NCBI RefSeq assembly: GCF_010468565.1
Contig: NZ_WUEG01000007.1
Location: forward strand, 124,001-188,000
Source: Allomuricauda sp. TY007
GTDB lineage: Bacteria; Bacteroidota; Bacteroidia; Flavobacteriales; Flavobacteriaceae
DNA length: 64,000 nt
Direction of reading: 5' to 3'
Under the pieces are notes generated by a model, which saw nothing but the letters and a program-made list of their open reading frames with translations, did no database searches and was not told where the DNA came from. The translations under genes and the position numbers were made by a program. Of this stretch, positions 41,882 to 49,863 are shown piece after piece. The number at the start of each line of letters is the position of its first letter. Position 1 is the stretch's first letter.

Positions 41882-41903
41882 TTATTTATAATTAGTCTAA
41901 ATA
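41882..41903 (-). promoter_or_regulatory. Candidate metalloregulator operator 1
   Basis: 22-base near-palindrome; on the minus strand it begins TATTTAGACTAATTATAA, and it differs from the copy at 41949-41971 by two positions. It lies directly upstream of the promoter. See the finding. Confidence 0.6.
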
Positions 41904-41906
41904 TTT

Positions 41907-41938
41907 TTTGCTTGATTTAGCAGTGGAACATACATTTG
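41907..41938 (+). promoter_or_regulatory. Promoter of metal uptake locus
   Basis: TTTG (41907-41910) and TACATTTG (41931-41938) with 20-base spacing give a good Bacteroidota promoter. Flanked by two operator-like copies. Confidence 0.7.
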
Positions 41939-41948
41939 CAGCTCAAAC

Positions 41949-41971
41949 TTATTTAGACCAATTACAAATAA
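41949..41971 (+). promoter_or_regulatory. Candidate metalloregulator operator 2
   Basis: TTATTTAGACCAATTACAAA (+3 bases) lies between the predicted transcription start and the ATG at 41973, inverted relative to copy 1. Binding here would block transcription. Confidence 0.6.
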
Positions 41972-41972
41972 A

Positions 41973-44435
41973 ATGAAACATATATTACTCATTCTTAGTT
42001 TCACAGCTTTTTTTACTTCTCAAGCACAAACTGGAAACTTAAAAGGAAAAGTAACCGATCAAAGAAACAACCCACTTGGCAATGTCAATATTGCGGTGTC
42101 CAACACCAGCTTAGGTACAAATACGGACTATTCCGGGGAATACGAAATTTCCAACCTCGCTCCTGGCTCCTACACCTTAACGTTTTCGATGGTAGGTTTT
42201 GGCACACAGAACAAAACCGTGACTGTTTACGCTAACCAAACCACTAACATACAAACCATCACTTTGGTGGAAAGGCAAGAACAGCTCAATGAGGTTGTAG
42301 TTGAGGGTAACCAAACCAACAAATTCTCGCGCAAAGCAAGTGTTTATGTCTCAAAAATGCCCCTCAAAGACATCGAAAACCCTCAGGTTTACAATTCCAT
42401 CTCAACGGAATTATTGCAAGACCAGGTTGTTACCAATTTTGATGACGCCCTTAAGAATGCTCCGGGCATCGATAAACTTTGGGAATCTACTGGAAGGGGA
42501 AATGACGGCGCTGGTTATTTTTCGTTGCGTGGTTTTGCCGTACAGCCCACAATGATCAACGGTTTGCCAGGTTTAACCAACGGAAGTCCCGACCCTGCCA
42601 ATATTGAATCCATCGAAGTAATCAAAGGCCCTTCGGGCACTTTGTATGGTAGTAGCTTAATTTCTTACGGTGGTTTGATCAACATCAATACCAAAAAGCC
42701 ATATTACGGTTTTGGTGGGAATATCTCCTATACTTCTGGCAGCTACGGATTGAACCGTGTAAGTGCCGACGTAAATACCACATTGGGCGACCAAAACAAC
42801 ATTGCGCTTCGTGTAAACACTTCATACCATACCCAAAACAGCTACCAAGATGCTGGATTTAGAAAGTCCTTCTTTTTTGCGCCATCCTTGGCGTTTCAGG
42901 CCAGTGATAGACTTTCTTTCAACATCAACACCGAATTTTATAACGGTAGAAGCACTAACCAAACGATGTTATTTTTAGATCGTGGAGCACCGCTTCGTGT
43001 GACCAATCTGGATGAACTGGGTTACGATTTCAAACGTTCCTACACCAGCAATGATTTGTATATCGACACTCCAACCTACAGTTTACAAGGCCAGATGAAC
43101 TATATTTTGAGTGATTCTTGGACCTCCCAGACCGTAATTTCGAGGTCCAATGCAAAGTCTGATGGGTATTACTCTTACTTGTACGAGGTAAGCTCGACCG
43201 TTGAAGGTCTTTCAGGAACACCTTTGGAAGACGGCATTATTCTGGCCCGTTACACCAGTAACCAAAACTCCGAGACCTTGGGAACCGATATCCAACAGAA
43301 CTTTATCGGGGATTTCAATATCGGAACCATGAGAAACCGCTTGGTAGTTGGACTGGATTACCTTAAAACACGAACCATCAACAACAGTACTGGCTACGGA
43401 AACCAAGGATTTGCCTATGTTGGGTCGAACCCTGATGAATTCCAAGCCGTTGCCCCTGCCCTACACGATTACTACGGAACCCCAATGGGCACAGGTCGGT
43501 ACGACTCTGGTGTATTGACCCAGGCAGGTGCCGATGCTGGAATCGCCACTTTGGCTAATCCGGGAGCACAATTCAGCGAAGCTGAGCAAGAGATTTTCAG
43601 TGCCTACGCTTCCAATGTAATCAACCTATTGCCAGAATTGTCAGCAATGGCCAGTTTGCGGGTGGACCGTTTTTCCAATGATGGGTACAATCAGACCGCC
43701 TTTTCACCAAAATTCGGATTGGTTTATCAGCCTATTTTAAACAGAGTTTCCCTTTTTGCCAATTATATGAACGGGTTCAGCAACGTGGCTCCTGTAACGG
43801 AACTATCCGATGGAAACACATCTGTTAGGGCGTTAAACCCAGAACACGCGAACCAATTTGAGGTAGGTACCAAGTTGAACTTGTTCAACGATAGGCTTTC
43901 CGCAACCTTCAGCTACTACGATATTACCGTAAGTGATATGGCGCAACGGATTGATACCGATGCCGATAACTATTTCTATACTCAAGATGGTGAACAAACC
44001 AGTAAAGGTTTTGAAGCGAGCATTATCGCTTCTCCAGTCGATGGTTTAAATATTGTTGCAGGCTACAGCTATAACGACAGCAAATTGGTGGAAGGAGATA
44101 CCAGTTTTCTAGGGTTTAGACCGGAAAGCGCAGGCCCAATGAACTTGGCCAATGTTTGGGCCAGCTACAGATTTACCCAAGGCAGCTTGGAGAACTTTGG
44201 ACTTGGCTTTGGGGGTAACTACGCCAGCGAAAACAAAATCTTCAACAGATCCAACGGTACGTTCGCCATTGATGAGTACACCATTTTAAATGCATCAACC
44301 TTTTACGATGCAAGAGACTTCAGAATCACATTGAAGTTGGACAACATAGCCAACAAAGACTATTACAAAGGTTGGTCCACCATCAGCCCACAAAACTTGA
44401 GAAGTATTTCTGCCAACTTTACTTATAAATTCTAA
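41973..44435 (+). CDS. TonB-dependent siderophore-type receptor 1
   Basis: 820 residues. Signal peptide MKHILLILSFTAFFTSQAQ, then a carboxypeptidase-regulatory-like domain (~22-105, LKGKVTDQRNNPLGNVNIAVSN), a plug (~125-240, with IESIEVIKGPSGTLYG) and a 22-strand barrel ending LRSISANFTYKF. The plug lettering fits receptors for ferric siderophores or other metal chelates. First gene of a six-gene locus, so its promoter is the locus promoter with the flanking operator pair. Ligand not determinable. Confidence 0.92.
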   Translation: MKHILLILSFTAFFTSQAQTGNLKGKVTDQRNNPLGNVNIAVSNTSLGTNTDYSGEYEISNLAPGSYTLTFSMVGFGTQNKTVTVYANQTTNIQTITLVERQEQLNEVVVEGNQTNKFSRKASVYVSKMPLKDIENPQVYNSISTELLQDQVVTNFDDALKNAPGIDKLWESTGRGNDGAGYFSLRGFAVQPTMINGLPGLTNGSPDPANIESIEVIKGPSGTLYGSSLISYGGLININTKKPYYGFGGNISYTSGSYGLNRVSADVNTTLGDQNNIALRVNTSYHTQNSYQDAGFRKSFFFAPSLAFQASDRLSFNINTEFYNGRSTNQTMLFLDRGAPLRVTNLDELGYDFKRSYTSNDLYIDTPTYSLQGQMNYILSDSWTSQTVISRSNAKSDGYYSYLYEVSSTVEGLSGTPLEDGIILARYTSNQNSETLGTDIQQNFIGDFNIGTMRNRLVVGLDYLKTRTINNSTGYGNQGFAYVGSNPDEFQAVAPALHDYYGTPMGTGRYDSGVLTQAGADAGIATLANPGAQFSEAEQEIFSAYASNVINLLPELSAMASLRVDRFSNDGYNQTAFSPKFGLVYQPILNRVSLFANYMNGFSNVAPVTELSDGNTSVRALNPEHANQFEVGTKLNLFNDRLSATFSYYDITVSDMAQRIDTDADNYFYTQDGEQTSKGFEASIIASPVDGLNIVAGYSYNDSKLVEGDTSFLGFRPESAGPMNLANVWASYRFTQGSLENFGLGFGGNYASENKIFNRSNGTFAIDEYTILNASTFYDARDFRITLKLDNIANKDYYKGWSTISPQNLRSISANFTYKF

Positions 44436-44506
44436 GTAAGGTACCATGAAAAAAACAATTGTCACATTACTTCTTAATCCTACCAGTAAAATCGGTATCA
44501 GCCTAC

Positions 44507-44535
44507 TATTTATGATTGGAAACCAATTACAAATA
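44507..44535. promoter_or_regulatory. Inverted repeat before receptor 2, operator-like
   Basis: TATTTATGATTGG (44507-44519) and CCAATTACAAATA (44523-44535) are complementary at 11 of 13 positions. The right arm plus start region (CCAATTACAAATAAGAATGAAAA-like) matches the leader of receptor 1. Confidence 0.5.
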
Positions 44536-44538
44536 AGA

Positions 44539-46875
44539 ATGAAAAATATATTACTCATCCTCAGCCTAGCTGTCTTTTCTTTTTCGCAAGCTCAAACAGG
44601 AGGTTTGGAAGGAAAAGTTACAGACCAAAGAAACACCCCCCTACCCGACGTCAACATCATGCTATCCAACACAAGTTTGGGTGCTACAACCGATAGTTCG
44701 GGGTCCTATAAAATCGACAACCTTGCAGCTGGCTCCTATACCCTTACCTTTTCTATGGTGGGTTATGGTATGCAAACTAAGACCATCACTATTAATGCTG
44801 GACAAACCACACAAGTTCCAACCGTTAAAATGATGGAAAAACAAGAACAACTTAACGAAGTGATTGTTGAAGGCCATCAAAACAAATATCTAGAAAGAGA
44901 ACCTTCAACATCGCTAAGGTTGAAAACCGAATTGGTGAAGCTTCCACAAAATGTACAGGTAATCAGCAATGAGCTGTTAAAAGACCAACAGGTTACCACC
45001 ATAATGGACGGGCTTACCAGAAACGTAAGTGGTGTAACAATGTTGGAACACTGGGGACAGTTTGCAAGAATCAACATGCGTGGTTTCCGTTTGCCCGCTT
45101 TTAGGAACGGAGTAAACGTTCAGGACAGTTGGGGGCCTTTGGCCGAAGACATGAACACAGTGGAACGCATTGAGTTTGTAAAAGGTCCAGCCGGATTCAT
45201 GATGTCCGCAGGCGAGCCCGGTGGTTTTTATAACGTAGTCACCAAAAAACCTACGGAAGAATTTGTCGCCAATGCCTCTTTTACGGCAGGAAGCTTTGAT
45301 TTTTATCGCGGTACCATTGATGTGGGTGGCAAAGCCTCCGAAAATGGAAAGTTGCTTTATCGCTTCAACGCCATGTATCAAACTACGGACAGCCATAGAG
45401 GAAATGAGCAAACCGATAGATTTGGCATTGCCCCTGCCCTAACCTATAAGTTTAGCGATAAAACTTCCGTTACAGCAGAGATGAACCTACAGGATGCCGA
45501 ATCCTTCTTGGGGTCTGCCTATATTTTTGCGCCTGTGGAAGATGGATACGCGAGCCTGCCCCGTGATTTCAATTTTGTTGATACCAATTATCCAAAAACC
45601 GACATCCAAGAAGTTACTTTCTTTTTGAATGCCAAACACGAATTTTCAGATAATTGGAGCGTTGAAGGTCAAATGGCATACCTAAGATATGATCAAGTTG
45701 GGAACTCTGCATGGATTGGAGGACTTGATAGCGATACCGGAGATGTTGTTAGGACTATATCCCAGTGGGATGCACTATCCGTAGGTAAATATGCCCAGTT
45801 ATACATCAATGGAGCCTTCAATACCGGCGCTGTTTCCCATAAAATATTGGGAGGTTTCGACTTTAGTGAAAAAGCCTATTGGGCCGACTTTTCGGTTACA
45901 CTTCCTGTAGATACTGCTACACCTTTCAATATCTACAATCCCCAATATGGCGTCACTATTCCAGAATTCGACCGTTCAGTAAATGTTCAATATAGAAACG
46001 GAGGTGCTCCATATAGTGCAAATACGTTAAGAGGATACTACCTGCAAGATGAGATTGGTTTCTTGGAGGATAAAATTCGATTGACCTTGGCCGGACGGTA
46101 CACGAACTTGTACACTCAAGGAAAAACTGAAAACGATGATGTATTTACGCCACGTGTTGGATTGAGTGTTGATATTTTGCCCGATTTGACCGTCTACGGA
46201 CTATATGACCAATCTTTCTTGCCACAAGCGGGAATGAGTGTTGATATGGAGCCTTTGAACGACCCTGTTGATGCGAACGATATTGAGGGCGGTATTAAGA
46301 AGAGTTTCTTCGATGGACGCCTGAGAACCTCATTGGGAGCCTTCCAAATTACAAAAGAGAACATTTTGACCACTGACCCATCCAATCCCAACTTCTCCAT
46401 GTATTTGGGCGAAGTCCAATCAAAAGGTATAGAGTTCGACTTGCAAGGGGAAATTACCCCAGAGCTAAATGTAATCTTGAACTACGCCAACACCAAAGTT
46501 GAAGTGACCGAAGACCCCAATCCGGACATTGTGGGCACCAGAGTGGCCGGCCACGCCAAACATGTAACCAATGGATGGTTGAACTACAACTTCGCCCAGA
46601 CATCATCGTTGAACGGGTTCGGCGTTTCCTTGGGCTACCAATACCAAGTGGATAGATCTACTTGGGCCTGGGCCGCAGATAACCAGTCAGACCTTCCAGA
46701 TTATTTTAGGATGGATGGTGCCCTATCATGGAGAAACAGCAATTTCAGGGTTCAGTTGAACATCAACAATATTTTGGACGAATATCTATATTCCGGTGCC
46801 AATTATGGTTCCTATCTATATTGGCAATCGGAACCCGGAATCAATGGAAGACTTACCGTGGCATATAGTTTTTAA
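44539..46875 (+). CDS. TonB-dependent siderophore-type receptor 2
   Basis: 778 residues from the ATG at 44539. An in-frame ATG at 44446 would add 31 residues without a signal; the 44539 start begins MKNILLILSLAVFSFSQAQ, a proper signal peptide matching receptor 1, so it is preferred. Regulatory-like domain ~20-100 (LEGKVTDQRNTPLPDVNIML), plug (~120-230, VERIEFVKGPAGFMMSAGEPGGFYNV) of the FhuA/ferric-siderophore style, barrel ending RLTVAYSF. Follows receptor 1 by ~100 bases and is probably cotranscribed with it. Confidence 0.92.
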   Translation: MKNILLILSLAVFSFSQAQTGGLEGKVTDQRNTPLPDVNIMLSNTSLGATTDSSGSYKIDNLAAGSYTLTFSMVGYGMQTKTITINAGQTTQVPTVKMMEKQEQLNEVIVEGHQNKYLEREPSTSLRLKTELVKLPQNVQVISNELLKDQQVTTIMDGLTRNVSGVTMLEHWGQFARINMRGFRLPAFRNGVNVQDSWGPLAEDMNTVERIEFVKGPAGFMMSAGEPGGFYNVVTKKPTEEFVANASFTAGSFDFYRGTIDVGGKASENGKLLYRFNAMYQTTDSHRGNEQTDRFGIAPALTYKFSDKTSVTAEMNLQDAESFLGSAYIFAPVEDGYASLPRDFNFVDTNYPKTDIQEVTFFLNAKHEFSDNWSVEGQMAYLRYDQVGNSAWIGGLDSDTGDVVRTISQWDALSVGKYAQLYINGAFNTGAVSHKILGGFDFSEKAYWADFSVTLPVDTATPFNIYNPQYGVTIPEFDRSVNVQYRNGGAPYSANTLRGYYLQDEIGFLEDKIRLTLAGRYTNLYTQGKTENDDVFTPRVGLSVDILPDLTVYGLYDQSFLPQAGMSVDMEPLNDPVDANDIEGGIKKSFFDGRLRTSLGAFQITKENILTTDPSNPNFSMYLGEVQSKGIEFDLQGEITPELNVILNYANTKVEVTEDPNPDIVGTRVAGHAKHVTNGWLNYNFAQTSSLNGFGVSLGYQYQVDRSTWAWAADNQSDLPDYFRMDGALSWRNSNFRVQLNINNILDEYLYSGANYGSYLYWQSEPGINGRLTVAYSF

Positions 46876-46933: not shown

Positions 46934-47650
46934 ATGAAAACAAAATTCATTCTCTTTTTAACTTGTCTCTTCGGGACCCTTACAGCCCAAGCCCATTACT
47001 TGTGGATAGAGACCAATGGAACTGGAAAACTTGGTCAAGCACAGGAAGTACGCGTGCACTATGGGGAATACACCTATGGTGTGATTGAAAAAGTGGAAGG
47101 CGAAGCGTTTCCTGCCGTTTCCAAATTTACCCTTTGGGTAATAGCTCCCGATGGCACAAAAACTGAAATAAGCACCGAAGCCAAAGAAGATTATTATCTG
47201 GCCAGCTTCACACCGTCACAAAGTGGTGTTTATACCGTTGCCCTGAACAACAATGAAATTGATGTAATCGATTATACCCAGTACGACTTTGGTATTTTCA
47301 AAACGCATTACCATTCCACTGCAAAGGTTCAAGTAGGTTCTGATGGTGATACAAAAACGGCAAATCCAGATGGAATCGTAGTAAAACAATTGGAAAATGA
47401 TGGAAAAGAAATCAAGCTCCAAGTTTTGTACAAGGGGGAGCCCATCGCAAAAAACGAACTTAAAGTCTATGTTGCGGACCTGTGGTCCAAAACCTTGTAC
47501 ACCGACGATAATGGAGAGGTTTCCTTTGCCCTGCCTTGGGACACCAAGTACATTGTGGAGACGACGACCAAAGAAGAAATTCCCGGCACCTATAACGGTG
47601 AGGACTATGAATTTATCTGGCATTGTGCCACCTATTGCATAAAAAGATAA
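46934..47650 (+). CDS. DUF4198 family periplasmic protein
   Basis: 238 residues. Signal peptide MKTKFILFLTCLFGTLTAQA, and HYLWIE directly after cleavage places a His at the mature N-terminus, a common metal-ligand layout of DUF4198. Two beta domains follow (RVHYGEYTYGVIEKVEG, GIFKTHYHSTAKVQVG, GEPIAKNELKVYV). These proteins occur with metal and siderophore uptake genes. The ending EDYEFIWHCATYCIKR has a Cys pair. Operon position 3 of 6. Confidence 0.85.
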   Translation: MKTKFILFLTCLFGTLTAQAHYLWIETNGTGKLGQAQEVRVHYGEYTYGVIEKVEGEAFPAVSKFTLWVIAPDGTKTEISTEAKEDYYLASFTPSQSGVYTVALNNNEIDVIDYTQYDFGIFKTHYHSTAKVQVGSDGDTKTANPDGIVVKQLENDGKEIKLQVLYKGEPIAKNELKVYVADLWSKTLYTDDNGEVSFALPWDTKYIVETTTKEEIPGTYNGEDYEFIWHCATYCIKR

Positions 47651-47652
47651 CC

Positions 47653-47985
47653 ATGGCCACCGGAATTTCCCTTCTTGCGTTTATTTCCTTTTACCTGCTG
47701 TACAGTACATCAAAAAAAATGTCGGCAATGGGAAATCTTGGTTTTGAACACTCTATAGCTGAGCATAAAAAAGCCTCAAAATATGTCAGTTTGGCCCTAA
47801 TGATTTTTTCATTGGGGCTTAGCTGTATTTATTGGGGACTAGGTTCGGGTACGTTCACTTTTTTTATCATTTTGATGACGGTTGCCAGTTTAGTGATTCT
47901 CTTGGCACCCTTACGCTTGTTAAACTACCGCTTTTTGGGTGTTCTTTTTTTGTGTTCCATCCTTTTTGAAACCATATTGTTTTAA
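47653..47985 (+). CDS. Small membrane protein, DUF3325-like
   Basis: 110 residues starting at ATG 47653, two bases after the previous stop; an upstream in-frame start at 47623 lies inside the DUF4198 gene and is rejected. Three or four membrane helices (GISLLAFISFYLLYSTS, SLALMIFSLGLSCIYWGLG, FFIILMTVASLVILLAPL, FLGVLFLCSILFETILF). Location next to a DUF3649-like gene and a PepSY gene supports a DUF3325-type accessory of iron transport; the assignment is by context and length. Confidence 0.75.
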   Translation: MATGISLLAFISFYLLYSTSKKMSAMGNLGFEHSIAEHKKASKYVSLALMIFSLGLSCIYWGLGSGTFTFFIILMTVASLVILLAPLRLLNYRFLGVLFLCSILFETILF

Positions 47986-47988
47986 GCT

Positions 47989-48288
47989 ATGCCTGCCAAC
48001 AAAAAATATTTGACCCCATCATTCTCGCAACGATTTGCCAAAATTACCGCTGCCATTTTGGGCGGACTTATTGTGGCCGTGATGTTCCATATGGCCTTGG
48101 CCAGTTGGTTCAACCATGTGGCGGTCATCATTACCAGCACCTTTACGGCCTTTATCCTTTGGGCTGTTTTAATGGTTATTGCCTTTTTGGGCAAAAATGG
48201 CTGGAAAGTCTGGGGTATTTACCTTTTGGCCAGTTTAGTGCTCTTTGTCATATTTTATTTTGGAAATCAAACCAACCCTCTTGTTTAA
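47989..48288 (+). CDS. Small membrane protein, DUF3649-like
   Basis: 99 residues, three helices. SQRFAKITAAILGGLIVAV and FTAFILWAVLMVIAFLG match the DUF3649 pattern, whose members sit with PepSY-type ferric reductases. It begins three bases after the previous stop and ends three bases before PepSY, so translation is coupled. Confidence 0.78.
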   Translation: MPANKKYLTPSFSQRFAKITAAILGGLIVAVMFHMALASWFNHVAVIITSTFTAFILWAVLMVIAFLGKNGWKVWGIYLLASLVLFVIFYFGNQTNPLV

Positions 48289-48291
48289 ACC

Positions 48292-49863
48292 ATGGGAAAC
48301 CGTATCTACAATATCTTGTTCCACACACATACCGTAAGCGGTATTGTAATCAGCGTAGCACTCTACGTTATTTTCTTTACAGGATCTTTCTCCTTTTTTA
48401 GGGATGAAATTGCCAATTGGGAACGCGGACATACCGTTAGCCAAGAAGATGCATTGCCCGGTAGCATTAACGGCTACCTTAACGATCTTTCCGAAGAATA
48501 TAATCTTTATGGCCGTGATGTGGAACTACGGCATTATTACAACGAGAGAAGTATTTCCGTTAATCTGGGTGCATCCAAAGACTCGTTGGCTTTGGAAGAT
48601 GATCGGGCCCCTGTATTCTTTTATTTAGATCCAGTAGCCAAGACCAAAACGGAAACCTATGCGGAGAACTATCATTTGGGGGAGTTTTTGTACCGTCTGC
48701 ACTTTTTAGATCAAATCCCCTACCCCTACGGAAGGTATTTGGCGGGATTGGTGGCATTCTTTTTTCTATTTGCCATCATCACGGGGATTTTGGTGCATTG
48801 GAACAAGATTGTTTCCAACTTTTACACTTTTAGACCTTGGGCCAAGCTCAAAACCATGTGGACCGATGCCCATACAGCCTTGGGAGTGATAGGATTTCCA
48901 TTTCAGTTTGTTTATGCCGTAACCGGAGCTTTCTTTTTGCTCAAAGGTATTTTGATTCTCCCAGTTGTAATGGGACTGTACGATGGCGATCAAAACAAGT
49001 TGTTTGAGGACTTGGAGTACAACCACCCTGTCTACGAGTTCCAGAATAAAAAATTGAACGGCACCGTCAACTTAGATCAATATGTCGAAGAAATGAAAGC
49101 GGACTGGGGTGATTTTCGGGTTACGGAAGCACACATCTTTAATTATGGGGATAAAAATATGCATGCCGCCATCAGCGGATATCTTGGTTACAACACCAAA
49201 TTGAACGGGGTCGGTTACCGTATTTACAAAATTTCCGATGGTTCCATTGCGCAGGAAAAGGTACCGATTGCCCCAACTTCCTATTTGGATGGAGTGAAAA
49301 ATATGATGTTCCGACTCCATTTTGGCGATTACGCTGGTTATGGCTTGCGTGTGATTTCCTTTATCCTTGGATTGGTTTCCTGTTTTGTAATCCTATCCGG
49401 AATTATGATCTGGTTGGTGGCACGGGACAAAAAAAATGTTCCAGAAAAGCGTCGTAAGTTCAATAAGCAAGTGGCCAATTGGTATATGGCGATATGCCTT
49501 AGCTTGCTTCCCGTTACCGCTTTGGAATTCATTATTGTAAAGTTTGTACCCGAAGTAAACAGAGGCTTCCTCTACCAAACCTATTTCCCGATTTGGTTGG
49601 CGGCAACGGTGTTCTTTATCCTTAAAAAGGATATTGGTTTCACCAACAAGTGGACATTGATTTCAGGTGGAATTTTGGGTTTATTGGTTCCGATTGCAAA
49701 CGGAATTACCACGGGTAATTGGTTTTGGGTAGCATATCAAAATGGATATCAGCAAATTCTTTTGGTAGATTTACTATGGCTGCTTTTAGGTATTGTTTCC
49801 CTTTGGATCGCCTTCTTTAAACTGAAAACCAAAAGGTCGGAGCTGGTTCCGAGCAAAAGCTAA
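48292..49863 (+). CDS. PepSY-associated transmembrane protein (ferric-siderophore reductase-like)
   Basis: 523 residues. Helix 1 near residues 15-40 (TVSGIVISVALYVIFFTGSFSF) precedes a periplasmic PepSY region; further helices near 145-165, 197-225, 350-375 and four at the C-terminus (~395-510). Conserved His in HTHTVSG, LHFLDQIPYPYGRY and DAHTALG are candidate haem ligands; relatives (FsrB, PiuB) reduce ferric siderophores at the inner membrane. Last gene of the uptake locus, it overlaps the convergent DUF1801 gene by four bases. Confidence 0.88.
   Translation: MGNRIYNILFHTHTVSGIVISVALYVIFFTGSFSFFRDEIANWERGHTVSQEDALPGSINGYLNDLSEEYNLYGRDVELRHYYNERSISVNLGASKDSLALEDDRAPVFFYLDPVAKTKTETYAENYHLGEFLYRLHFLDQIPYPYGRYLAGLVAFFFLFAIITGILVHWNKIVSNFYTFRPWAKLKTMWTDAHTALGVIGFPFQFVYAVTGAFFLLKGILILPVVMGLYDGDQNKLFEDLEYNHPVYEFQNKKLNGTVNLDQYVEEMKADWGDFRVTEAHIFNYGDKNMHAAISGYLGYNTKLNGVGYRIYKISDGSIAQEKVPIAPTSYLDGVKNMMFRLHFGDYAGYGLRVISFILGLVSCFVILSGIMIWLVARDKKNVPEKRRKFNKQVANWYMAICLSLLPVTALEFIIVKFVPEVNRGFLYQTYFPIWLAATVFFILKKDIGFTNKWTLISGGILGLLVPIANGITTGNWFWVAYQNGYQQILLVDLLWLLLGIVSLWIAFFKLKTKRSELVPSKS

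Follow-up and report, generated by a model that had tools for sequence, protein, structure and literature searches.

Two conserved predicted Fur boxes flank the promoter of a siderophore-receptor operon in Allomuricauda sp. TY007

Two nearly identical palindromes enclose the promoter of a siderophore-receptor operon in Allomuricauda sp. TY007, and this arrangement raises the question of which regulator recognizes them and how occupation of a pair of sites would act on a single promoter. The operon is located in a stretch of 64,000 nucleotides that was analyzed as a whole (the window), and both sites lie between a kdsA-like gene of the DAHP-synthetase family, which adjoins on the upstream side, and the gene for receptor 1. 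Both receptors exceed the cut-off of the TonB-siderophore model TIGR01783, and the relatives of receptor 1 at 92-95% identity belong to the Flagellimonas/Allomuricauda group. The features of the locus are listed in Table 1.

Table 1. Features of the receptor locus in window coordinates
Feature	Position	Strand	Basis and remarks
Fur box (predicted), site 1, TTATTTATAATTAGTCTAAATAT, upstream operator	41882..41904	+	About -62 to -40, abuts -33 element; top profile match; conserved
-33-like promoter element TTTG	41908..41911	+	Sequence; 20-nt spacer to -7 element
-7 promoter element TACATTTG, TAnnTTTG type	41932..41939	+	Sequence; conservation
Predicted transcription start	41944	+	From the -12 to -5 element position given in PMC9723704
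Fur box (predicted), site 2, TTATTTAGACCAATTACAAATAA, downstream operator	41949..41971	+	About +6 to +28; ends 1 nt before start codon; second profile match; conserved
TonB-dependent siderophore receptor 1	41973..44435	+	TIGR01783 263 bits (cut-off 223.5); Pfam plug and barrel; FhuA/FoxA-type solved relatives
Probable remnant of original DUF4198 gene start (approximate)	44446..44480	+	Resembles relatives' DUF4198 start directly after receptor 1
Probably inactive half Fur box ahead of receptor 2	44520..44536	+	4.4 bits; paralogous with 41957 onward
TonB-dependent siderophore receptor 2	44539..46875	+	TIGR01783 255 bits; apparently inserted after receptor 1, ahead of DUF4198
DUF4198 protein	46934..47650	+	PF10670
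Small membrane protein, start uncertain	47623..47985	+	ORF; conserved in relatives
Small membrane protein	47989..48288	+	ORF; conserved in relatives
PepSY_TM membrane protein, possible siderophore-iron reductase	48292..49863	+	PF03929; kept in operon in relatives

A first-pass annotation of the locus had described a 22-base near-palindrome and an inverted copy that differ at two positions and lie on either side of the promoter. This description is correct. Over 23 bp, site 1 is identical to the reverse complement of site 2 at 20 positions, with two of the three differences falling within the first 22 bases, and internal symmetry amounts to 16/23 positions in site 1 and 14/23 in site 2. The motif is itself a palindrome; the two copies face opposite ways only in that the better half-site is the right one in site 1 and the left one in site 2. 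Both elements of the Bacteroidota-type promoter are situated between the sites, and the start codon of receptor 1 follows at position 41973. Elements of the -7 type have been placed at -12 to -5 in a promoter study of F. psychrophilum, in whose main text the name Fur is absent (PMC9723704). In most receptor-1 orthologs a TTG is found 22-24 nt before the -7 element.

With a symmetric profile trained on 67 distinct sites from relatives of receptor 1 in other genera (own genus group excluded), sites 1 and 2 rank first in the window with 21.1 bits each, while the third match reaches 13.2 bits. In sequence simulated by a first-order Markov model of this promoter's AT-rich composition, 21.1 bits are attained about once per million positions; profile rank and simulation together exclude a chance origin of the two sites. 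When nine close relatives are aligned, the columns of site 1 and those of the -7 element are on average 98.6% conserved each and those of site 2 94.7%, as compared with only 63-68% for the spacers and the upstream DNA.

The consensus, TTATTTAGAnTnAnTCTAAATAA, includes a 19-bp palindrome, ATTTAGAATTATTCTAAAT, that has been predicted as the Fur box of Riemerella anatipestifer; in this species, promoters bearing the box are shifted by purified Fur in electrophoretic mobility shift assays (PMC5609570). In a fur mutant of the same species two receptor genes are derepressed, and Fur binds one of their promoters in a manganese-dependent manner (PMC7976709). The latter publication quotes an Escherichia coli-type GATAAT box from R. 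anatipestifer YM, whereas the 2017 paper (PMC5609570) gives ATTTAGA; it is the ATTTAGA form, rather than GATAAT, that the sites in the window fit.

The first-pass annotation had proposed a motif search and had named random placement without enrichment near metal genes as an outcome that would speak against iron control. Such placement is contradicted by the distribution of the motif. A 23-bp pattern with up to three mismatches, with the reversed pattern as control, finds 11 sites in the genome of strain TY007 and none in the control, while the 19-bp core with two mismatches gives a weaker contrast (12 sites vs. 4). The pattern search was used instead of a sequence-only profile model, which scored 150 of 3124 candidates in the whole genome and missed known sites. 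Counting downstream as well as divergent genes, sites adjoin feoAB, a DUF6686 gene and the receptor-1 operon; a TonB receptor divergent from DUF6607 carries two boxes 44 bp apart, and one site precedes a small protein that is followed by ferritin. Upstream of hemA only the shorter core is matched. No clear link to iron is apparent for sites near a PAP2 phosphatase, an OprP-like porin and a SPOR-type gene, nor for one on contig C24 and one at C43:77326. The same genes carry sites in genomes of the same genus, and in the genome as well as in its relatives the boxes are located at promoters of iron-acquisition genes.

Several of these loci deserve mention in their own right. The DUF6686 gene, situated next to guaB, carries a Fur box that is strongly conserved among many relatives (L108 from 1501 onward; L118, L121, L123, L124, L126), which suggests an uncharacterized iron-responsive protein. 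The small protein between Fur box and ferritin gene comprises 106 amino acids and has no Pfam match (L098, 1499-2487); a similar small protein is present in a relative (L119). Several genomes of the genus share the identical box TTATTTTAAATCAATCTAAATAA, with a PAP2 phosphatase gene and a small, divergently oriented reading frame rich in lysine as its neighbors (L112, L120).

With regard to the regulator, the first-pass annotation had left the choice between Fur- and DtxR-type control. The genome encodes five FUR-family and two DtxR-family proteins. One of the former, the core Fur (G000:C43:146727-147179), is encoded between relA/spoT and purA homologs, occurs as one copy in each of 113 of the 146 genomes of the order surveyed, and retains the HDH motif and other histidines when aligned to solved Fur proteins. 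When the 146 genomes are divided by presence of a relative of this protein, the 113 Fur-positive genomes contain 495 sites vs. 32 in the control and the 33 Fur-negative genomes 9 vs. 7, so that boxes and Fur ortholog co-occur. Genome size and lineage confound this contrast, as 27 of the 33 Fur-negative genomes belong to one family with genomes of 0.3-0.6 Mb. At this stringency some Fur-positive genomes have zero sites, and two Fur-negative genomes, G093 and G022, carry five and three sites, respectively. For G093 an incomplete assembly is the likely reason for the missing Fur match, as Fur is present in its sister G112, whose sites are nearly the same.

Taken together, these data point to Fur as the best candidate for the binding protein: the Riemerella box, the iron-gene targets, the co-occurrence with core Fur and the persistence of sites in genomes lacking DtxR narrow the predicted control to this regulator. 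That the sites are instead bound by the DtxR/MntR-type regulator G000:C1:27506-28198 is very improbable. This protein, for which MntR proteins are the closest models, has its gene on the feoAB contig, with a ZIP transporter and a TonB receptor as neighbors, but the Fur-positive genomes G013 and G030 keep five and six sites (controls one and two) without a detectable DtxR relative, G069 has DtxR, no Fur match and zero sites, no box scores at the DtxR locus itself (L008), and the published flavobacterial box belongs to Fur. Binding by a different paralog from the FUR family, one of PerR- or Zur-like type, is highly unlikely as well. Five FUR-family genes offer several candidates, and since the PerR-type 7-1-7 core TTATAATnATTATAA and the Fur-type core fit site 1 equally (12/15 each, with idealized cores), a PerR-like paralog is compatible with the sequence. 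Genes for HemA and ferritin-like proteins are PerR targets in other bacteria. Against such a paralog, three of the four remaining FUR-family genes reside in heavy-metal efflux clusters, core Fur is the copy present in 113 of the 146 genomes, and the targets include feoAB and siderophore receptors. Among the genes encountered at the strongest sites, none is a peroxide gene.

We therefore favor, with considerable confidence, the interpretation that both palindromes are Fur boxes and that iron-loaded Fur would bind both and block transcription of the siderophore-receptor operon. In iron-replete cells, Fur charged with iron, most likely the conserved core Fur that is present as one copy, would occupy site 1 against the -33 element and also site 2, and so would keep RNA polymerase off the promoter or prevent it from leaving; once iron falls, Fur would be released and the operon transcribed. 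The earlier suggestion that binding at the second site interferes with initiation is plausible and consistent with a position at about +6 to +28. We infer from comparative sequence evidence that this Fur binds, that it responds to iron and represses, and that the two sites act independently of a phased loop. That site 2, a palindrome within the leader, functions as an RNA hairpin rather than as a DNA operator has a negligible probability, for the leader shows no better folding than shuffled sequences (0 and -3.0 kcal/mol; z 0.33 and -0.37) and the same motif is also found upstream of promoters.

The first-pass annotation had further proposed that the pair could support looping, and for a phased loop this finds no support. 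Among 81 upstream regions of receptor 1, 66 contain two sites, with TAnnTTTG between them in 64, whereas 15 regions have a single site, which is the upstream one in some and the downstream one in others. The center of site 1 lies 35-38 bp before TAnnTTTG in 64/64 regions and that of site 2 13-22 bp after it; because site 1 is fixed and site 2 drifts relative to the -7 element, the spacing ranges from 57 to 67 bp, i.e., 5.4 to 6.4 helical turns. A common helical phase is hardly detectable (resultant length 0.31 over distinct spacings), and the counts are not independent, as 36 of the 64 regions, all from one genus, share one spacing. A strictly phased loop was rejected on these grounds, the variation amounting to about one helical turn. 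At other TonB-receptor promoters box pairs are spaced 44 to 73 bp around TAnnTTTG. A second TonB-receptor family, encoded beside DUF6686, likewise has two boxes flanking TAnnTTTG, 70-73 bp apart (L118, 2755-2850; L121, 2092-2187; L124, 877-969). The layout fits two sites that are each positioned against the promoter. It is accordingly unlikely that Fur on both sites holds a loop or a compacted bridge across the promoter: the wide conservation of the pair around the promoter and the compaction of a promoter by Helicobacter pylori Fur via several operators (PMC5007355) speak in favor, while the variable spacing at receptor 1 and at the other receptors and the existence of single-site orthologs speak against it. 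By analogy, non-phased, flexible bridging like that by H. pylori Fur may be compatible with the layout. In a broader and rather speculative version, paired Fur boxes clamping a promoter would represent a general design of Flavobacteriaceae TonB-receptor genes, in which Fur bridges the sites without fixed helical phase and provides a sharper iron switch than at single-box genes.

The first-pass annotation had also noted a related arm at 44507-44535, before receptor 2. This arm is real as sequence and consists of the right half of site 2 and the gene start (ACCAATTACAAATAA followed by ATGAAA), but it is only a half-box of 4.4 bits and belongs to a paralogous match between the 5' ends of both receptor genes. 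It lies at what seems to be the junction of an insertion and was not accepted as a third operator. DUF4198 is the gene directly downstream of receptor 1 in the eight closest relatives, with no receptor 2 in between; receptor 2 looks like an insertion that separated the two genes and disrupted the original start of DUF4198 (44446-46875). A relative of receptor 2 from Galbibacter has its own full box after TAAATTTG. Transcription of receptor 2 thus probably starts at the receptor-1 promoter.

The two palindromes are almost certainly sites for Fur, and the locus is best read as an ordinary Fur-controlled siderophore-receptor promoter, with a two-box layout that is unusually well conserved across flavobacteria. 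The analysis assigns this conserved operon to a likely regulator and provides a usable Fur-box profile for an order in which Fur has been little studied. Further candidate Fur targets emerge from the genome scan, e.g., DUF6686 and the small protein encoded ahead of ferritin, and the conserved pair offers a concrete system in which to study the action of two Fur sites on the promoter that they enclose.

Among known systems, the H. pylori arsR promoter resembles the one described here in having several Fur operators around a single promoter, one of them at and just after the start site; for arsR, a loop and a difference between the operators in their preference for apo- or holo-Fur are described in addition (PMC5007355). 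In the fepB-entC region of E. coli, two Fur boxes likewise lie near iron-gene promoters, one over -10/-35 and one downstream of +1, but each box serves its own divergent promoter and the sequence is of the GATAAT type (PMC5020551). A parallel in sequence is R. anatipestifer, in which a 19-bp palindrome also precedes genes for iron uptake, at a distance of no more than about 100 bp from the start codon (PMC5609570). Unlike in that organism, for which one box per gene is listed, two boxes, both imperfect copies, flank one promoter in Allomuricauda sp. TY007.
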